From: Spirochaetia bacterium
GTDB lineage: Bacteria; Spirochaetota; Spirochaetia; Treponematales; Breznakiellaceae
Reading direction: 5' to 3'
Assembly: GCA_025997595.1 (NCBI GenBank)
Contig: BNUU01000038.1
Coordinates: 1-15,234, forward strand
Length of the DNA stretch: 15,234 bases
The notes under the pieces were generated by a model, which saw only the letters and a list, made by a program, of their open reading frames with translations, was not told the DNA's origin and searched no databases. Position numbers and translations under genes: made by a program. Shown in pieces: positions 2,465 through 15,158 of the stretch (position 1 is its first letter; each line of letters starts with the position of its first letter).

Positions 2465-2476
2465 CCCTATATAGGG
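2465..2476 (+). promoter_or_regulatory. CCCTATATAGGG palindrome at the radC start
   Basis: A perfect 12-bp palindrome ends one base before the GTG of radC. It contains a TATATA that could act as a -10 box for a leaderless or nearly leaderless transcript. An ATTGA at 2441-2445 stands 24 bp before the palindrome, the same spacing as at 15123. The same palindrome occurs at 15147-15158, and a one-base variant at 10543-10554. Function (promoter, operator or translation control) is inferred from position only. Confidence 0.5.
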
Positions 2477-2477
2477 T

Positions 2478-3329
2478 GTGAATAATGATATTTATCCCGA
2501 TTTTATCAGACAGCTTGGGACCTCAACCGGGCTGCGGGGCAGCGTCGGACCGGAGGTCTGCGGTTCCCCCCTTGTGGTACGGGACACCGGAGGCCTGGCG
2601 CCGGCCCGCCGCATACAGGATCCTCCCGTGGTTGACCGTCCCCGGGAAAGGCTTTTTCATGAGGGACCGGCGGCCCTCTCGGATCATGAATTGCTGGCGA
2701 TCCTCCTTAATACGGGGATAAAGGGAAAGAATGTCACCGTCCTTGCAAAGGAACTCCTGGAACGGCTCGACCAGGATAAGGACATCCCCCCGGTGGAGGA
2801 ACTTGCCCATATTGATGGGATGGGGGAGTCCAAGGCAAGCGCCGTGGTGGCCATGCTGGAATTCGGCCGTCGGCGCTGGGGTTCCACGGGCCAGAGGATA
2901 CGGCATCCCTCGGATATTTATGGCTTTATCCGGCATCACGCCGACCGGAAGCAGGAGCGCTTCCTCTGCCTTTCCCTGAACGGCGCCCACGAAGTCCTGG
3001 CGGTAAGGATTATCACCATCGGCATCGTGAACCGGACCATGGTCCATCCCCGGGAAGTCTTTGCCGATGCCGTTGTCGACCGGGCCGCCGCGGTCATCGT
3101 GGCCCATAATCACCCTTCGGGGAAGCTTCAGCCCTCCCCGGAGGATGATGAGATCACCAGCCGTCTGAAATCCGCGGCGGATATCCTGGGAATACATTTC
3201 CTGGATCACCTTATCTTTACCAATGCCATCTGGTTTAGTTACCGTCAGAGCGGCAGGCTGGAAACCCTTCCACCCCCTGAAACCTTGGGGCCGGGCCCAA
3301 TAACCGCAAATGAGGGGGACCCGTACTAG
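2478..3329 (+). CDS. radC: RadC family protein (JAMM/MPN+ domain)
   Basis: Residues ~50-130 form the N-terminal helical/HhH part (DRPRERLFHEGPAALSDHELLAILL, then HIDGMGESKASAVVAMLEFGRR). Residues ~140-260 are the JAMM-fold domain with the metal motif HNHPSG at 210-215 and a downstream Asp at 223-224 (PSPEDDE), the RadC/UPF0758 signature. The family was named for DNA repair, but its biochemical role remains unsettled; it is common in mobile elements. The protein is 283 residues against about 225 usual. The first ~45 residues are unlike the family, so the start may lie downstream of GTG 2478; the palindrome next to 2478 is the reason for keeping it. The stop TAG (3327-3329) shares CTAG with the stop of the opposing coiled-coil gene. 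Confidence 0.9.
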   Translation: MNNDIYPDFIRQLGTSTGLRGSVGPEVCGSPLVVRDTGGLAPARRIQDPPVVDRPRERLFHEGPAALSDHELLAILLNTGIKGKNVTVLAKELLERLDQDKDIPPVEELAHIDGMGESKASAVVAMLEFGRRRWGSTGQRIRHPSDIYGFIRHHADRKQERFLCLSLNGAHEVLAVRIITIGIVNRTMVHPREVFADAVVDRAAAVIVAHNHPSGKLQPSPEDDEITSRLKSAADILGIHFLDHLIFTNAIWFSYRQSGRLETLPPPETLGPGPITANEGDPY

Positions 3330-6300
3330 TCCCGGGGGTTGAGTTCCAGGATCAGTTCCACTTCGCCAATCGAGCACTTGAGGGAATTGGCGATTTCCTT
3401 TGCGGTCCAGCCCTGGCGGGCAAGGGTGATGATGTTTTCCCGCACCCCTGGGGAAGGGGCGCCTTTGTTCGGAGTGACCCCTTTGCCCCCTTCATCTTTA
3501 TTAAGGCTGGCGGCCAGCTTGACCTGGTTCTGGGTCTGCTTGTTGAGTTCATTAAGCCGGGTTTCGGTATTGGCAAGCCATTCCCGGGCAACATTCATGT
3601 CCTTGATGCGTTTTTCGATGCCCACAAGGGTTGCGTCCAGGCTGGAAAGTTTCTCGGCGGCGGCTTCGGCCCGTTCGCTCCCGGCGGCGAGGGTTTCGAC
3701 GGAAAGGCGGATGCCCTCCAGCTCCCCGCTCATCCGGTCCAGGTCTTCCCTTACCCTGCGGACATCCTGTTCCGATTCCTGCAGGGCTTTGAAATTGCGG
3801 TCGATACCGTCGGTGGTGGCCTGCAGGGCCTGATTTTTCCGTTCCAGTCGCTGGTACCGCTCTTCGGTCTCCTTGAGGGCGTCCTCCAGGCGGCGTATCT
3901 GGATTTGCACGGCCTGAAGGGTGTCATCGGAGGAAGAAACCTGGACCAGTTTTTCCTCCACCGACTGGGAGGTCTGGAGGAGGCGGTTGAAATCCGCTTC
4001 CATTACTTCGATGCGGTGCTGCTCCCGGAGGAATTTGTTCATCTTGTCGTTTACATCATCCCCCAGGCGCTTGATCCTGACAAATTCGCCTTCCATTTGG
4101 GCCGCTTCGGATTTACGCTGATCCAGCCGGTCTATATCGCCCCGGAGATCCTCGATGCGCCGCTCCAGCTCTGTCCTGAGTTCGTCGGTTTTGTCGAAAA
4201 GTTTGGTCTGGGCGGTAAATTCCCGGATATGCCGTTCCGCTTCCGCCACGGCGGCCTCCAGGGTCTTTGCCTCTTCCCCGGTACGGGAGAAGATTTCCTG
4301 CCGGTAGGTCCCGGCTTCTTCCCGAACCTTTTCAATAGAAGCGCGTACCTGGGCGATCCGTTCGACGCTTTCGTCGATATTTTTCCGGTAACTGTCCAGA
4401 ATACCGGCGGTTTCGCCGCTTCGTTTTTCCACGGTATCGGCTATTTCCCTAAGCTGCTCCTCAAGCTCCCGCTGGTTTTGCTTGAGGGTTTCTGCGGAGG
4501 AAAGGGCGTAGCGGCCGATTTCCACCTTGACGGTGGCTTCGGCGGTCTCCCGGACCTCCTCCAGATCCCGGTCCAGCTGTGTGCGGAAGGCGGAGCGGGT
4601 TTCGTCGGCGCTCTGCATCTCCTCCCGGATTTGCGCTTCAAAGGCGCCGGTTTCGGCCTTGAGATGCTCAAGCTCCGCGATGAGCCGTTCGCTCTGATCG
4701 GCAAGGTTCTTGCGGAGTTCCTCGTTAAAGGCCAGTTCCATCTCCTGCCGGCCCGTTTCACCCGCTGCCGCAATCTCCGCAAGCCGGGCCTCCACCGATT
4801 CCTGCCATTCCGCAAGCCTCCGGTCGATATCGCCGCTCCGTTTGGAAAGATCCGCGAAGAAATCATCCTCAAAGCCCTTGAGTTTTTCCGATACATTATC
4901 GTATGCCCTGTTTTTAAGGCTATTGAGCTCCTGTTCCACCCCGTCGATTTCGGTTTTAAGGGCCGTGACCTGGGTGTTGAACTGGGAGGCAACCGCCTCC
5001 CGGCTGTCGGCGGACTCTTCTTCAAAATGGGTAAAGTCGGAGCGGACCCGTTTTTCCGCCTCCGCCATGATGCGCCGCAGTTCGCCTTCCAGCTGGGCCG
5101 TATCACCGGCCAGGGCTTCCAACTGCCTGAATTCCTCCGACTGGGCCGCCTTGTACTCCTCAAGCCGCGCCCCGGCGGACTCCAAAACCTGCTGTTCCGC
5201 TCCGGCGATGGCGGCGTTCCACTTTTCCCGCTGGGTGGACGCGGCGGTTTCCAGGGCTGCGGCTGCTTCCGCCCAGGATGCGCGCTGCTGCTTCGCGGCG
5301 GCTTCCAGGGACTGCCGCTCTACGGCAGCGGCGGCTTCCAACTCCGCGACAACGCCGGTCAGGGATTCCCGCTGACCGGTCAAGGCGGCATCCAGGGACT
5401 GCCGCTGCGCCTGTACGGCGGCTTCTAATTCCTCGGAGGCGGCGGCCCATTTTTCCTGCTGGGTACTTAAGGCGGTGTCCAGGGACTGCCGCTGTGCGGC
5501 GGCGGCGGCATCCAATTCCTCGGAGGCGGCGGCCCACTTTTCCTGCTGGGCACTTAAGGCGGCGTCCAGGGACTGCCGCTGCGCCTGTGCGGCGGCATCC
5601 AGTTCCGCCGCTGTCTGCGCCCATTTTTCCTGCTGACCGGCCAAAGCGGCGGCCAGGGATTCCTTGTGGACCTGTACGGAAGCTTCCAATTCTGCGGCTG
5701 TTTCCGCCCATTTTTCCTGTTGGGCGGCGAAGACGGCATCCAGTTCTGTGTCAATGCCGGTCCAGGATTCCCGCTGTGACCTGGCCAGGGCATTCAGTTC
5801 CTGGATATCCTTTTTCCATTCGTCCTGGTAGGCCTTCTGTTTTGCTTCGATTTCGCTGGTTTCGTTCTTCCATTCGTCACGGTGGGCCTTGAGCTGTTCC
5901 TGCATTTCCGTGATTCGGGTCTTGGCATTATCCTGTATGGATTTGAGTTTTTCTTCCACCGCAGTTTGGAGCCGCTTGACCCGTTCCTGGGCCTGATCCC
6001 GGAGCTTTACCAGGGCGGCGTCTTCCATTTTATCCGCCCTGAGCCCCGCCTTTTCCACCACCTCCCTGAGGGTCTTGTCTACCAGGGCCATATCCCGCTC
6101 AAGGTTCGCCGCCCGCGCCTCTTCGATCCTGTTCACCGCCTCCCGGTGATCTTCCACCTGGCGTTCGATGGTTTCCGCGTGAACCTCAAGGTCGGAAAGG
6201 GTGGATTTTACCGCGGCGATAAGGGCTTCGGATGTTTCTTCCAGGGCAACGCCGTTCTCCCGCTCAAAGCGGAGTTCAATTTCCCCCAGATCTTTTTCCA

Positions 6301-6739
6301 GGGCGGCAAGGCGGTTCTTTGTTTCGTTTACCTGCTTGCCGGTGTTTTCTACAAAGGAAGATTCTTCCCGGATGCGGCCCATGTTTTCCTGGACCCGGGC
6401 GGTCATTTTTACCAGTTCTTCCAGGGATTTGTCATAGGCGTTAATCCGTTCATCAATTTGGGCCACCGCCGCGGCCTTCTCCGCCAGCTCCTGATCGGTG
6501 ATCTGGAGGTGCTTCATCAATTCCCGTGCGGCCTTTTGTTCCACATCCAGATCGAGGGCATAATTTTTAACATCAACGGCCTTCTGCTCCGCAAAGGCCG
6601 AGAGATCCTCCTTGAGCTTGTCCGCGTACTTGCGTACATTGCTGATTTTTTTGTTGGTCCGGTCAAGCCGCCAAAACATAATCAGAGCCAAGGCGACAAT
6701 GCCGAGGGTTATCAGATTTCCTGCCGTAAATAAGCCCAT
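3326..6739 (-). CDS. Giant membrane-anchored coiled-coil protein with C-terminal HTH-like segment (SpiroCoCo-type)
   Basis: This protein has 1,137 residues. Residues ~5-24 (NLITLGIVALALIMFW) are a single membrane segment. From ~30 to ~1060 the sequence is almost unbroken heptad-rich, Glu/Ala/Lys/Arg-rich coiled coil. Residues 340-455 are four near-perfect 29-residue repeats (QQEKWA..AAELDAA..), decaying to about 520. The last ~40 residues (ITLARQGWTAKEIANSLK, then SIGEVELILEL) resemble a small helix-turn-helix of the kind that ends some bacterial membrane coiled-coil proteins. The layout fits the spirochaetal coiled-coil family that, as I recall, is called SpiroCoCo. A structural or scaffolding role at the inner membrane is likely but inferred. 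It is followed on the same strand, after the gap at 6740-6745, by nothing closer than the HAD gene upstream, whose stop lies 6 bp before this ATG, so the two are probably co-transcribed. Confidence 0.85.
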   Translation of the reverse strand: MGLFTAGNLITLGIVALALIMFWRLDRTNKKISNVRKYADKLKEDLSAFAEQKAVDVKNYALDLDVEQKAARELMKHLQITDQELAEKAAAVAQIDERINAYDKSLEELVKMTARVQENMGRIREESSFVENTGKQVNETKNRLAALEKDLGEIELRFERENGVALEETSEALIAAVKSTLSDLEVHAETIERQVEDHREAVNRIEEARAANLERDMALVDKTLREVVEKAGLRADKMEDAALVKLRDQAQERVKRLQTAVEEKLKSIQDNAKTRITEMQEQLKAHRDEWKNETSEIEAKQKAYQDEWKKDIQELNALARSQRESWTGIDTELDAVFAAQQEKWAETAAELEASVQVHKESLAAALAGQQEKWAQTAAELDAAAQAQRQSLDAALSAQQEKWAAASEELDAAAAAQRQSLDTALSTQQEKWAAASEELEAAVQAQRQSLDAALTGQRESLTGVVAELEAAAAVERQSLEAAAKQQRASWAEAAAALETAASTQREKWNAAIAGAEQQVLESAGARLEEYKAAQSEEFRQLEALAGDTAQLEGELRRIMAEAEKRVRSDFTHFEEESADSREAVASQFNTQVTALKTEIDGVEQELNSLKNRAYDNVSEKLKGFEDDFFADLSKRSGDIDRRLAEWQESVEARLAEIAAAGETGRQEMELAFNEELRKNLADQSERLIAELEHLKAETGAFEAQIREEMQSADETRSAFRTQLDRDLEEVRETAEATVKVEIGRYALSSAETLKQNQRELEEQLREIADTVEKRSGETAGILDSYRKNIDESVERIAQVRASIEKVREEAGTYRQEIFSRTGEEAKTLEAAVAEAERHIREFTAQTKLFDKTDELRTELERRIEDLRGDIDRLDQRKSEAAQMEGEFVRIKRLGDDVNDKMNKFLREQHRIEVMEADFNRLLQTSQSVEEKLVQVSSSDDTLQAVQIQIRRLEDALKETEERYQRLERKNQALQATTDGIDRNFKALQESEQDVRRVREDLDRMSGELEGIRLSVETLAAGSERAEAAAEKLSSLDATLVGIEKRIKDMNVAREWLANTETRLNELNKQTQNQVKLAASLNKDEGGKGVTPNKGAPSPGVRENIITLARQGWTAKEIANSLKCSIGEVELILELNPRD
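5375..5722 (-). repeat. Four tandem 87-bp coding repeats in the coiled-coil gene
   Basis: The marker TTTTCCTG(C/T)T recurs on the plus strand at 5451, 5538, 5625 and 5712, exactly 87 bp apart. Each unit encodes 29 residues starting QQEKW. Units two and three (counting from the N-terminus) and their neighbour are the most alike (QRQSLDAALS, AQRQSLDTALS). Twenty-nine residues equal four heptads plus one residue, so each unit adds a skip to the coiled coil. More diverged units continue to about 5180. Confidence 0.85.
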
Positions 6740-6745
6740 TTGCCC

Positions 6746-7444
6746 CTAGCTTAACACATATTTGCCTAATTGGCGATAGTCATGGAAGATAAACTCTGCC
6801 TGGGCGCGGCCTTTTTTTTGCAGGAGTCCCCTCAGGGGGTGACAGATCAGGGCGGCCTTCATCCCCGCTTTTTTTGCCCCCAAAATGTCGTAGGACACAC
6901 TGTTCCCCACATAGAGCAGCCGCTCGTTTTTCACACCCATGGCACGGGCAAGTTCCTCAAAGGACTCCGAGGCCGGTTTCAGCCGCCCCGTCCGTTCGGA
7001 GCAGCAGACCGCATCCCAAATGCCCCCCAGTCCCAGGTACTCAAGCTTTTGTTCCGGGGGAAAGTCCGAAAGAAGCCCCAGCTTGAGCCCCCCGCCGCGG
7101 ATGGCCCTCAATGTTTCCCCCACATGGGGAAAGGGCCGTATGTTTTTGAAGAGGGGCTCCCAGCCCCGGTAGATGAGCCTTTCGGTCCGTTCTTTAATGA
7201 AGGCCCCGTCCTTTTTGAGAAAGGCCCCCATGTGCCGCGCCTGGGCATCGTAGAAATCCTCCCCGGGAGCGGCTGTCGGCGCAGCCCTGCCCGGAATTTT
7301 CCCCCGCAGCACATCACGGGCCCGTCCAAAGGCCCAAAGGAGGGGGAACTCCTTCAGTATAAAGGGAATAAGCCTTAGGTTAAGGCGGTAGTTTGGGTAA
7401 AGGGTGCCGTCCAGATCAAAGGCAATGCCGTCAATGTTTTTCAT
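6746..7444 (-). CDS. HAD-family hydrolase (phosphatase-like)
   Basis: This 232-residue protein carries all four haloacid dehalogenase motifs: DLDGT at 10-14 (nucleophile Asp10, general acid Asp12), Ser126 in GLLSD, Lys156 in GRLKP, and YVGNSVSYDILGAKKAG with Asp186. A cap region lies between motifs I and II, fitting subfamily I hydrolases such as phosphoglycolate or small-metabolite phosphatases; the substrate cannot be told. The frame is open upstream to 7690, but that part is repeat sequence with no HAD resemblance, so I start at ATG 7444 (MKNIDGIAFDLDGT); ATG 7456 (MIKV) is the alternative. An AAAGGT lies only 2-3 bases before 7444. A hairpin with a T8 tail ends about 20-30 bp before the start. 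The stop is 6 bp upstream of the coiled-coil ATG. Confidence 0.9.
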   Translation of the reverse strand: MKNIDGIAFDLDGTLYPNYRLNLRLIPFILKEFPLLWAFGRARDVLRGKIPGRAAPTAAPGEDFYDAQARHMGAFLKKDGAFIKERTERLIYRGWEPLFKNIRPFPHVGETLRAIRGGGLKLGLLSDFPPEQKLEYLGLGGIWDAVCCSERTGRLKPASESFEELARAMGVKNERLLYVGNSVSYDILGAKKAGMKAALICHPLRGLLQKKGRAQAEFIFHDYRQLGKYVLS

Positions 7445-7468
7445 TACCTTTATCATAAATAAATTTGT

Positions 7469-7587
7469 AAAAAAAAGCAGCAGGCGTAGAGAGGCGACCC
7501 TTCGTTCGCCCGTCCTCGGCAATTCGGCCCTTCGGTCGAATTGTCTGCGGGTTCGCGAACTCAGGGTCACCTCTCTACGCCTGCTGC
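7469..7587 (-). terminator. Hairpin plus T8: possible intrinsic terminator before the HAD gene
   Basis: Read on the minus strand, the outer stem of the first composite hairpin (7587-7563 pairing with 7501-7477) is followed at once by eight T (A run at 7469-7476). This is the form of a rho-independent terminator for the gene at 7751-9163. It lies only 13-25 bp upstream of the possible HAD starts, so HAD expression may depend on read-through. The stem is far longer than ordinary terminators. Confidence 0.45.
7477..7587. repeat. Composite hairpin repeat, copy 1
   Basis: Outer arms 7477-7501 and 7563-7587 are complementary at 24 of 25 positions (GCAGCAGGCGTAGAGAGG...). Inside lie a conserved left module GTTCGCCCGTCCTCG (7504-7518), a variable inner hairpin CAATTCG...CGAATTG (7520-7543) and a conserved right module TCTGCGGGTTCGCGAACT (7544-7561). 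The left and right modules recur, in the opposite orientation and with a different inner stem, in copy 2. Confidence 0.9.
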
Positions 7588-7624
7588 CTTGGTTTGTCAG
7601 GTTTAGTTGGGTGGGGAACCAATA

Positions 7625-7737
7625 CAGCGGGGTGCAGAGAGAGGCCCCTGCAGTTCGCGAACCCGCAGATATTTTGAACCGGAGGTTCAAAATATCGAGG
7701 ACGGGCGAACAAAGGGGTCTCTCTCTGCACCCCGCTG
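7625..7737. repeat. Composite hairpin repeat, copy 2, inverted relative to copy 1
   Basis: Outer arms 7625-7649 and 7713-7737 match at 24 of 25 positions (CAGCGGGGTGCAGAGAGA...). Inside, on the plus strand: AGTTCGCGAACCCGCAGA (reverse complement of copy 1's right module), an inner hairpin TATTTTGAACC...GGTTCAAAATA, then CGAGGACGGGCGAAC (reverse complement of copy 1's left module). The modules are identical between copies while both stems differ in sequence but stay paired, so pairing appears to be conserved. Confidence 0.9.
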
Positions 7738-7750
7738 CTTTGTTTACGGC

Positions 7751-9163
7751 TTAGGGATCGAATTGACCTTCCACAGGAATCCGGACCAGGTTAACGTAGT
7801 GACCGGGGTAGCGGTTTTTGAAGCTGCTGAACTGGGTTTCCTCGGCGCTTTCAAAGACCGCCACCTGAAAATTGCCGTATTCGTTGAAGTAGGGGACCAG
7901 GACCGCAATGTGGAAGTGCTGGCGCATCCGGGGGCGGCCCCGGGGGTTGTCCTCGGTGGTGGGGGGGCCCATTTCGGTGTTGATTGAGGCCAGGTAGATG
8001 CGGCCCGGTTCGTCGATGGCCAGGGTGTAGAGCAGGGGGTGGATTCCCTCGAAGCCGAAGCCGGCGTTTTCCAGGAAGCCGGGGTAGGCTCGTACGGAGG
8101 CGCCCGAGGGGGTTTCCGGGAACCCGCCTGTGCGGGGGAGGCCGCTGCTGCCGGCGGCGGCGCCCCGGACTATTATCTGGGAGAAAGGCCAGTGCCGCAC
8201 TTCAAATTCTTCAAGTTTTGCGTAGGCCGGAGCCCGGAGGACGGTCATGGCACGGGAGGCAAGATTCCGGGTCCAGTCAAGGCCGAAGAAGGGGTCCCGG
8301 CTTTCTTCCCATGGTTTGGTAAACGATGAGCCCCGGTCGCCAAAGGACTGCTTGAGGGGCGTAACCGGCAGCCGTTCCCCGGTAAGGGGCCGCAGGAGTC
8401 CGTCCACCACCCATTTGGCAAAACCTGAACAGTTAAGCCCCGACGCGTCTTTTTGGGTTTCCAGGGTCTCGATAAACACATAGTTCCCGTTTTCATCGAA
8501 GGCGCCGTCGTCCTGAAACTCAAGCCCGCCCAGACGTTCCCGCATCCGGGCCATAAAAAGCCGGAGGTCCCGGTAGTTATCGGCGTCGGGATCAAAGTAG
8601 CGGCGGGGGAATTTATCCCCGGCGATGGAAAAAACTTCCTCCACGGGCATGGAAAGGAGCCGTTCAAAGGGAATGGGCAGGGGCTGGGAGCGGACCACGT
8701 AAGCTTCGTAGAGGACCACGTCCATCTGGCACCGGTCATCGCCGAGGGGTCGGAACTGGACATAGGTATAGGGGTCGCTCCGGGGGAATATCCTGATACG
8801 GCTTGCCTCCCCGGTATCCTGCCGGCGGGTAAGTATCCAGGAACCCTGGGCCCAGCCGGGATAGGTTCCGGTCGGCCCTGCGGGGCCGATAAGCTCCCTG
8901 GCAAGAACAACGGCGAATTCGTCACGCCCCGCTTCAACCCGTACCTGTACGCGCCCGCCTCCGCCCAGGGTCTGCATCTGAACCCTTTGGGAGAGCACAC
9001 GGGAGGGAATACCGGTAAACCAGCCCTCCCGGAGGGAAATCCGCAGGGCGGAATCATCCTCGATTTTACGGGTGGAGATATCCCGGCCATACAGGGGGAG
9101 GAGGGATGCGAAAAGGAGCAGTACGACGGCTAAAGTCCGGTGAAGCGGCAGTTTAAGATACAT
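7751..9163 (-). CDS. Secreted protein of unknown function with NCSGF cysteine motif
   Basis: The protein has 470 residues with a signal peptide (LAVVLLLFASLLPLYG, cleavage near residue 26). I do not recognise a named family. Residues ~30-160 look like a beta-rich domain. At 244-248 there is NCSGF, the form of the nucleophile region of NlpC/P60 and related papain-like cysteine peptidases (Asn-Cys-Ser-Gly), and near the C-terminus RQHFHIAVLVPYF (His416, His418) could supply the histidine. A cell-wall or lipoprotein-directed cysteine hydrolase in the periplasm is therefore possible, but this is inference from two short motifs. The ATG at 9163 is preceded by TATAGGAT, a poor ribosome-binding site. 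It is divergent from the HtrA-type gene with 63 bp between, which suggests a shared control region. Confidence 0.75.
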   Translation of the reverse strand: MYLKLPLHRTLAVVLLLFASLLPLYGRDISTRKIEDDSALRISLREGWFTGIPSRVLSQRVQMQTLGGGGRVQVRVEAGRDEFAVVLARELIGPAGPTGTYPGWAQGSWILTRRQDTGEASRIRIFPRSDPYTYVQFRPLGDDRCQMDVVLYEAYVVRSQPLPIPFERLLSMPVEEVFSIAGDKFPRRYFDPDADNYRDLRLFMARMRERLGGLEFQDDGAFDENGNYVFIETLETQKDASGLNCSGFAKWVVDGLLRPLTGERLPVTPLKQSFGDRGSSFTKPWEESRDPFFGLDWTRNLASRAMTVLRAPAYAKLEEFEVRHWPFSQIIVRGAAAGSSGLPRTGGFPETPSGASVRAYPGFLENAGFGFEGIHPLLYTLAIDEPGRIYLASINTEMGPPTTEDNPRGRPRMRQHFHIAVLVPYFNEYGNFQVAVFESAEETQFSSFKNRYPGHYVNLVRIPVEGQFDP

Positions 9164-10542: not shown

Positions 10543-10554
10543 CCCTATATAAGG
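10543..10554 (+). promoter_or_regulatory. Variant of the CCCTATATAGGG palindrome upstream of the PD-(D/E)XK gene
   Basis: CCCTATATAAGG differs by one base from the perfect palindromes at 2465 and 15147 and shares the preceding TG with the radC copy. Here it lies 11 bases before the likely ATG (10566), with a good Shine-Dalgarno GGAGG (10556-10560) between. The upstream ATTGA seen at the other two sites is absent. No terminator is evident in 10496-10542. Confidence 0.45.
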
Positions 10555-11445: not shown

Positions 11446-12486
11446 TTACCGCTCCATGAGCGTAGGGGCCCCGGAAAATTTTTCCAGTTTACGCAGGGCA
11501 TTTCCCCTTTTCAGGTAGCCGCAGGTGGTTTCAACGCTGGAGTGGTTTAACAGGTCCTTGACGGCCATGATGTCCTTTGTTTCCCGGTAGAGTTTTATGG
11601 CCGAGTAGTAGCGCAGGGAGTGGCAAAGGCTGGTGAAATTAAAACCGTATTTGAGCTTTAGCTTTTTAATCGCCTTTTTTGTCCGTTCGGTGTCATAGGC
11701 GCCCCAGGTGTCGAAGACCCTGCCGCCCCTCCAGTTTGGTTTAGGGGCCTGCCGCTCTACCTTAAGACCTCCCCCTGAAAAGCCTGCCGTTTCCCTTTCC
11801 GTTATGGTCTCCGCCAAATCCAGGGGAACCGGTCCCCCTATCTCCTTTCCCTTGGAAACCGTGAGGTAGTCCCAGGTTCCATCCCCGTTGGGAAACACCT
11901 CCAGGCATTCCATGGCCCCCACCCGGAGCCCCATGGCGGCCATGATCCTGATGGCCAAACTGGTCTTGGGATCGGTTTCCCGGATCAGGGTTTCCACTTC
12001 CGGATCGGTGGCGACCCGGGGAATAGCCCTGACCCTTGGGGGCATCTTTATTTTCAGCTTTAAAAAATGGTTTTTGAACAGCAGGCCCTCTCCCACATTC
12101 TCCGTCAGGTGGGTGTAAAGGGAGCGGGCGGTTTTGATCCCTATGTTGAAATAGCTGCTGGACAGGCCGCGCCGGAGGCACTCTCCCTTCAAATAGAGGG
12201 CGTACCGCTCTGCCATGGCCCGGTCAATGAGCCGGGGATCGGCGCCTCTGCCCCGGCACCAGTTCAGGAATAAATTAACAGAGTGCCGGTACTTTGTCCG
12301 GGTGGAGGCGGAAACCTGAATATCGAGCCAGTGTTCTACCTCCCCCTCAAAATCGACCTTCAAAAGGGCTATTTCCCGCCCCCTTTTTGCCGCGTCAAGG
12401 TCAAGGTTTGCCTTTAATTCCACCGCATCAAGATAACGCTGGTTTTTAACTACCACCCGGCCTATGGCATCTGATGAATCATCCAT
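11446..12486 (-). CDS. Tyrosine recombinase / phage-type integrase
   Basis: The start is ATG 12486-12484, supported by AAGGAG with a 7-base spacer. The protein has 346 residues. Residues ~45-135 are a SAM-like core-binding domain (VEHWLDIQVSASTRTKYRHS, then VNLFLNWC). The catalytic domain has the complete set: Arg188 in MGLRVGAM, Lys212 or 214 in SKGKE, His289-x-x-Arg292 in CHSLRYYSA, His315 in LLNHSSVETT and nucleophile Tyr324 in GYLKR. It should catalyse site-specific strand exchange; its target is unknown. No excisionase, att repeat or phage gene is seen nearby. The 173-bp upstream gap (12487-12659) holds no further gene; it could include its promoter or an att site, but I see no repeat that shows this. 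Confidence 0.9.
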   Translation of the reverse strand: MDDSSDAIGRVVVKNQRYLDAVELKANLDLDAAKRGREIALLKVDFEGEVEHWLDIQVSASTRTKYRHSVNLFLNWCRGRGADPRLIDRAMAERYALYLKGECLRRGLSSSYFNIGIKTARSLYTHLTENVGEGLLFKNHFLKLKIKMPPRVRAIPRVATDPEVETLIRETDPKTSLAIRIMAAMGLRVGAMECLEVFPNGDGTWDYLTVSKGKEIGGPVPLDLAETITERETAGFSGGGLKVERQAPKPNWRGGRVFDTWGAYDTERTKKAIKKLKLKYGFNFTSLCHSLRYYSAIKLYRETKDIMAVKDLLNHSSVETTCGYLKRGNALRKLEKFSGAPTLMER

Positions 12487-15146: not shown

Positions 15147-15158
15147 CCCTATATAGGG
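15147..15158 (+). promoter_or_regulatory. CCCTATATAGGG palindrome at the start of the Rpn-like gene
   Basis: This perfect 12-bp palindrome is identical to the radC copy (2465-2476) and likewise ends one base before the start codon. An ATTGA at 15123-15127 stands 24 bp before the palindrome, as at radC, and several bases between agree (GCC, CA, AA, G). Confidence 0.5.

Follow-up and report, generated by a model that had tools for sequence, protein, structure and literature searches.

Two long hairpins of opposite orientation stand side by side between two spirochaete genes, each made of short modules that are the same in both and of stems that differ in sequence yet remain paired. The question raised by this locus is whether the hairpins belong to a repeat family and, if so, what reads the modules and keeps them fixed while the stems change. 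The window analysed here, 15234 bases long, is one entire contig (C38) of the 139-contig genome G000. One neighbour of the hairpins is a HAD-type hydrolase gene (6746-7444, minus strand), and the other is a 470-aa ORF (7751-9163, minus strand) that has no match in Pfam or NCBIfam.

Two composite hairpins with identical modules

Module GTTCGCCCGTCCTCG lies at 7504-7518 on the plus strand and, inverted, at 7696-7710; module TCTGCGGGTTCGCGAACT lies at 7544-7561 on the plus strand and, inverted, at 7652-7669. Both are absent from the rest of the window. The two copies have opposite orientation and the same nested build: the outer arms enclose the two sides of a 6-bp stem, which enclose the two modules, and between the modules lies the inner hairpin. 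We define as the B strand the one that reads CGCGAACCCGCA - inner hairpin - CGAGGACGGGCG; copy 1 has it on the minus strand and copy 2 on the plus strand. Copy 1 is predicted to fold with 24 pairs and one mismatch in its arms, enclosing a 6-bp GTTCGC:GCGAAC stem, inside which a conserved mismatched stretch is followed by the inner hairpin. None of 200 dinucleotide-preserving shuffles matched the fold energy of either copy, and a repeat search of the window returned the same relations between the arms and modules of both copies. The features are as follows.

7477-7588, minus strand: copy 1, whole element (fold z -12.2, computed on the plus strand; 107.7 bits with covariance model R1 at 7476-7590, minus; orthologous copy L062:1979-2093)
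7477-7501: copy 1, left outer arm (from the fold)
7504-7509: copy 1, six-bp stem, side 1, GTTCGC (fold and copy alignment)
7510-7517, minus strand: copy 1, module 2, B strand GAGGACGG (the same 8 letters in 35 full-core copies, which were found by this module)
7518-7545: copy 1, inner hairpin with variable stem (copy comparison)
7546-7554, minus strand: copy 1, module 1, B strand GAACCCGCA (in 29 of 35 copies; GGACCCGCA in 6 of 35)
7555-7560: copy 1, six-bp stem, side 2, GCGAAC (fold and copy alignment)
7563-7587: copy 1, right outer arm (fold)
7625-7739, plus strand: copy 2, whole element (fold z -13.7 on the plus strand, -10.7 on the minus strand; R1 118.8 bits at 7622-7738, plus; orthologous copy L062:2175-2292)
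7626-7649: copy 2, left outer arm (fold)
7653-7658: copy 2, six-bp stem, side 1 (fold and copy alignment)
7659-7667, plus strand: copy 2, module 1, GAACCCGCA (copy comparison)
7668-7696: copy 2, inner hairpin (copy comparison)
7697-7704, plus strand: copy 2, module 2, GAGGACGG (copy comparison)
7705-7710: copy 2, six-bp stem, side 2 (fold and copy alignment)
7713-7736: copy 2, right outer arm (fold)

Both of the opposed composite hairpins described in the earlier note are therefore present, with identical modules and fold z between -10.7 and -13.7, and their inner stems and outer arms differ while staying paired, as it had said. Two further repeats were observed in the window: a 121-nt inverted repeat (1-121 and 593-713, 99% complementary) at the extreme contig end, which may be an assembly artefact, and 87-nt direct repeats (5210-5722) within a long coiled-coil-like ORF (3326-6739).

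A repeat family with a fixed core and exchanged stems

A single-module search of G000 allowing up to 3 mismatches located five further places. With the covariance model R1, made from 14 copies, the total rose to 36 places spread over two genomes of a single spirochaete genus: G000 has 9, and its sibling G001 ('Spirochaetia bacterium PG1894_110', which we take to be of termite gut origin) has 27. Three of the 27 are incomplete, two being at contig ends (C105, C80:11218) and one lacking the right arm (C78:175). Antisense R1 matches (40.9-68.6 bits; 7 in G000 and 22 in G001) overlie known copies and were excluded from the places. Two candidates in G000 were also dropped, C3:73171 for its weak R1 match (20.7 bits) and C7:28693, found by a loose pattern, for a fold unlike that of the element.

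Among the 35 copies with a full core, the second module was GAGGACGG in every one and the first was GAACCCGCA in 29 and GGACCCGCA in 6, a constancy that is partly ascertainment, since the copies were mostly found via their modules. The same 35 copies contain 21 distinct inner hairpins. Their 6-bp stem is CATCGC:GCGATG in 29, GTTCGC:GCGAAC in 5 and a diverged version with 4 pairs in one. In the folds, arms of 24 pairs accompany this stem and an inner stem of about 11-13 bp. The copies for alignments A2 (14) and A3 (16) were chosen by hand. The 14-copy alignment has 97.0% of its cells paired, and 25 of 43 pairs had changed on both sides, a number reached in 0 of 500 shuffles. The covariation score was 0.481, compared with a shuffle mean of 0.147 (0 of 500 as high) and 0.06-0.10 for slid structures; these shuffles take no account of relatedness among the copies. 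The consensus fold of A3 has 15 pairs and loses the outer arms. The repeat family that the earlier note proposed, with constant modules and two-sided stem changes, is thus borne out: the search for the modules in the genome and its relatives gave further copies carrying compensatory changes, and the covariance model, also proposed there, agrees.

We searched 195 genomes of the taxonomic family for more distant copies. Under stricter filters R1 matched three of them at E of 0.01 or below, with 18 candidates scored per genome, so that absence from the others is weak evidence. The exact two-module pattern occurred in two of the 195, which are the two siblings. G139 (R1 29.4 bits, E=0.003) and G145 (27.5 bits, E=0.02), each of another genus, have in common CCGCAG, a palindromic apex and CGAGGAC, at two places in G139 and three in G145; one of these five, L160, has a fold unlike the others and was omitted from A3. 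The G139 and G145 copies are probably distant relatives of the element in two further genera. In a search of 38 relatives around G145, G145 alone matched. The loose pattern CCGCAGNCN{14,36}GNCGAGGAC hit 46 of the 195 genomes and its reversed control 45, which is chance level overall, and from it we kept the five G139 and G145 copies alone, on their common palindromic apex. Wider genome contigs gave 27 stretches with the exact two-module pattern, of which 18 belong to the sibling assembly and 9 are single matches in unrelated bacteria. We treat the latter as chance: R1 gave the four of them that were scored at most 21.5 bits, and at most 15.6 where its match overlapped the pattern site. One match in a viral contig had no R1 match at E up to 1.

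The opposed pair is not supported as the unit of the family: 24 of the 36 places lack a second copy within 1 kb, and of the six close pairs three face outward and three stand head-to-tail, in a count that may miss some partners because contigs are short. A second outward-facing pair in G000 (contig C41, L121:2652-2768 and 3545-3659) surrounds a predicted 170-aa ORF whose start looks like that of a lipoprotein, upstream of an EF-G-like gene (both names by eye). The G000 copies fall between longer ORFs, and short ORFs across some of them were judged spurious by eye. Two attempts to find an empty site returned repeat matches alone, without orthologous flank.

Many copies in G001 belong to a sub-family, c, with longer arms that have the ends CAGCCCCCCTGCAACCG...CGGTTGCAGGGGGGCTG. 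The same ends, CAGCCCCCCTGCAACCG and CGGTTGCAGGGGGGCTG, are found in both genomes on a second family of palindromes with a different core, 162-179 bp in length (12 copies opened; L185, L190-L199), in which the apical parts are conserved and the inner stems are variable yet paired. No target duplication was seen by eye beside these 12 copies, and no parent element with a transposase sharing the sub-family c ends was found among the selected places opened. From the common arms, we take it as the simplest reading that palindromes have swapped cores and arms with one another; arm sharing between the two families suggests modular assembly.

Constraint at orthologous places and the folded strand

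In G001 the orthologous place (L062) also carries copies 1 and 2 next to each other, with flanks 82% identical over 2785 columns; the two copies are older than the split of the two species. Two further orthologous pairs, C1 with L030 and C41a with G001:C56, were picked up through a module or the model and then matched by their shared 3' flanks; copies 1 and 2 had been matched through their flanks. The four pairs together show 1 difference in the 116 positions of the 29-nt core (P 7e-9), 14 in the 240 positions of the 30-nt arm segments (P 1e-7) and 12 in the 115 of the inner hairpins (P 0.03), compared with 241 in the 1393 (17.3%) of the 3' flanks, coding sequence included. The near-unchanged core beside diverged flanks indicates that the copies are constrained where they are located, and constraint on the core at fixed positions is accordingly supported by all four pairs taken together. 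In copy 1, five of 37 pairs have changed on both sides relative to the sibling and are still Watson-Crick, where 0.41 were expected; none of 200000 random placements reached five. Four changes in copy 1 were one-sided, comprising one broken pair, one G.T and two repaired A.C mismatches.

Selection would not be needed for the stems if template switching at replication kept them paired and the core were inherited from a recent common source. As PMC8794818 reports, template switching can both generate paired stems and preserve their pairing, and two adjacent outer pairs of copy 1 did change together between the species. We nevertheless consider such neutral palindromes distinctly improbable, because the orthologous core is far less changed than flanks that include coding DNA, because the internal loop remains mismatched where correction would erase the mismatch, and because copies 1 and 2 predate the species split. 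Template switching may explain the paired stem changes but not the unchanged mismatched core.

Among departures from Watson-Crick pairing on the B strand we counted by hand 15 G.T and 6 A.C column-events (two-sided P = 0.078), 11 to 3 in the outer arms and 4 to 3 in the inner stems. The tally covers outer-arm positions 4-27 and the inner stems minus loop positions in 34 copies and takes one event per column, type and lineage, a grouping on which the outcome depends. The G.T excess leans, not conclusively, to one folded strand, the B strand, as RNA or ssDNA; of the two, RNA seems the more likely.

A folded transcript could simply be an ordinary intrinsic terminator, possibly bidirectional. The strong stem is followed by a T-run 3' of the B strand in copy 1, C1, C3a and C3b, and copy 2 lies about 13 nt past the stop codon of the 7751-9163 gene and C3a 11 nt past an ORF. 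The T-run is missing, however, from C41a, C5, C26 and sub-family c; C1 and C41b are in divergent spacers, copy 1 and C1 lie about 30 nt before a start codon, and terminators do not need conserved mismatched modules. Copies occupy tandem, convergent and divergent spacers, with inconsistent place and orientation relative to genes, and a plain terminator therefore cannot cover all of them. We think this explanation very improbable for the family.

Candidate partners, known systems and the proposed reading

The earlier note had suggested looking for a REP-associated tyrosine transposase (RAYT) as partner, and the search did not support one. Y1_Tnp genes are present in G000 (1), G001 (1), G139 (2) and G145 (3), and also in five of eight comparison genomes; R1 had no match up to E=5 at any of the seven Y1_Tnp loci in the four element-bearing genomes. 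A loose module regex gave three matches in these loci, one inside a Y1 gene and two elsewhere, which we judged by eye to be chance. At three of the seven loci a GGACAGAGC motif was seen by eye upstream, which may mark the Y1_Tnp genes' own repeats. The window itself has a tyrosine recombinase gene (11446-12486), 3.7 kb from the element and with no shown link to it. Its product is related to XerA/C/D models at scores far below their cut-offs, and scored 35.6 bits with the integron integrase model, whose cut-off is 265. Completeness of the assemblies is 79% for G000 and 71% for G001, and a partner gene may lie outside them.

A short palindrome, CCCTATATAGGG, was also observed three times in the window (2465-2476, 10543-10554 and 15147-15158, one copy with one mismatch; 0.04 expected by chance). 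Two of these are just ahead of predicted starts, and another copy, L175:2480-2491, is just ahead of a Y1_Tnp start; it is possibly a promoter-like motif.

The earlier note had likened the hairpins to REP/BIME or MITE-like elements, and the second likeness fits better. At 36 places the element is a short, non-coding, interspersed palindrome, which is one mark of MITEs. The long MITE-like palindromes ERIC and NEMIS/Correia are likewise about 100-200 bp, non-coding, interspersed and palindromic, with a predicted stable RNA fold. According to PMC10969869, RNase III cleaves transcripts of Correia/NEMIS elements, and an RNase E effect is reported for ERIC. The element differs from these in having a fixed internal-loop core with exchangeable stems, in being GC-rich rather than AT-rich and in being without a known parent insertion sequence. 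By its sequence it appears to be a MITE/ERIC-like interspersed palindrome in build, with an unusual split into fixed core and exchangeable stems.

REP/BIME/REPIN elements with TnpAREP (RAYT) resemble it as palindromes with stem variants and a conserved mismatch that the enzyme requires (PMC8266576 and PMC3733652). E. coli REP depends on its conserved mismatch bulge, and TnpAREP was no longer active once the stem had been made regular (PMC8266576). REP stems, however, measure 5-13 bp and carry on one side an unpaired terminal GTAG or CGTC tag (PMC3733652), whereas the arms of the element alone have 24 pairs and inspection by eye showed no GTAG or CGTC tag at the hairpin foot. The element has CGTC solely between stems, as part of the complement of module 2; stem length, tag position and tail do not fit a CGTC-type REP, and together with the Y1_Tnp loci the first two count against REP with RAYT.

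Rfam 15 structured RNA families share with the element covarying stems around conserved loops. Nothing in the whole window matched Rfam 15 at gathering scores, and the ten matches at E up to 5 over 7420-7780 (eight microRNA models, one sRNA and one lncRNA) were all well below their own cut-offs, in keeping with the earlier note's candidate for an undescribed repeat family. We found no description of it in the titles or abstract openings of the literature searched, which leaves many subscription papers outside reach. Integron attC sites carry consensus boxes; none was seen by eye in the element. Nor was a cassette array seen, and copies lie between unrelated genes. What the element may share with attC is one-strand recognition by fold, which in attC involves flipped-out base contacts (PMC8266576).

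Such systems raise the alternative of a mobile ssDNA hairpin with no role in place, in which a strand-specific transposase or recombinase reads the modules on folded ssDNA, as in REP/TnpAREP or attC/IntI. High-copy dispersal in G001, the outer arms common to the second palindromic family, the lean of G.T over A.C on one strand, a Y1_Tnp gene in all four element-bearing genomes tested and the nearby tyrosine recombinase gene would all suit it. We still rate it as unlikely, since R1 places no element near any of the seven Y1_Tnp loci and mobility alone leaves the near-constancy of the orthologous core unexplained.

The reading we favour, tentatively and at slightly under an even chance, is that these are non-coding interspersed palindromes of about 115 nt whose folded strand, more likely a transcript, is recognised by a putative protein through two near-invariant unpaired modules held by exchangeable stems. 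Together the modules would make up an internal loop, mismatched and conserved, with stems of unrestricted sequence on either side, and the protein would read the folded single strand at this loop, as TnpAREP reads the E. coli REP bulge; by that analogy we infer recognition of a folded single strand. The elements would spread as non-autonomous mobile DNA, insertion being suggested by their dispersal, and fixed copies would still act in place, the simplest form being a hairpin close to a transcript end that is bound or processed; since the orthologous copies remain under constraint, such a local role is likely. A bolder version, which we find doubtful, is that a fixed internal-loop core, read by its own protein, passed between palindromic arm sets and genera and was then retained as a working RNA (or ssDNA) element.

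Dispersed bacterial palindromes are often regarded as decaying mobile debris; here the orthologous mismatched core is near-constant while the stems change in paired steps. This contrast separates the part that is likely recognised, the core, from the stems as its mere holder, and makes the element a natural experiment for weighing selection for fold against template-switch repair.
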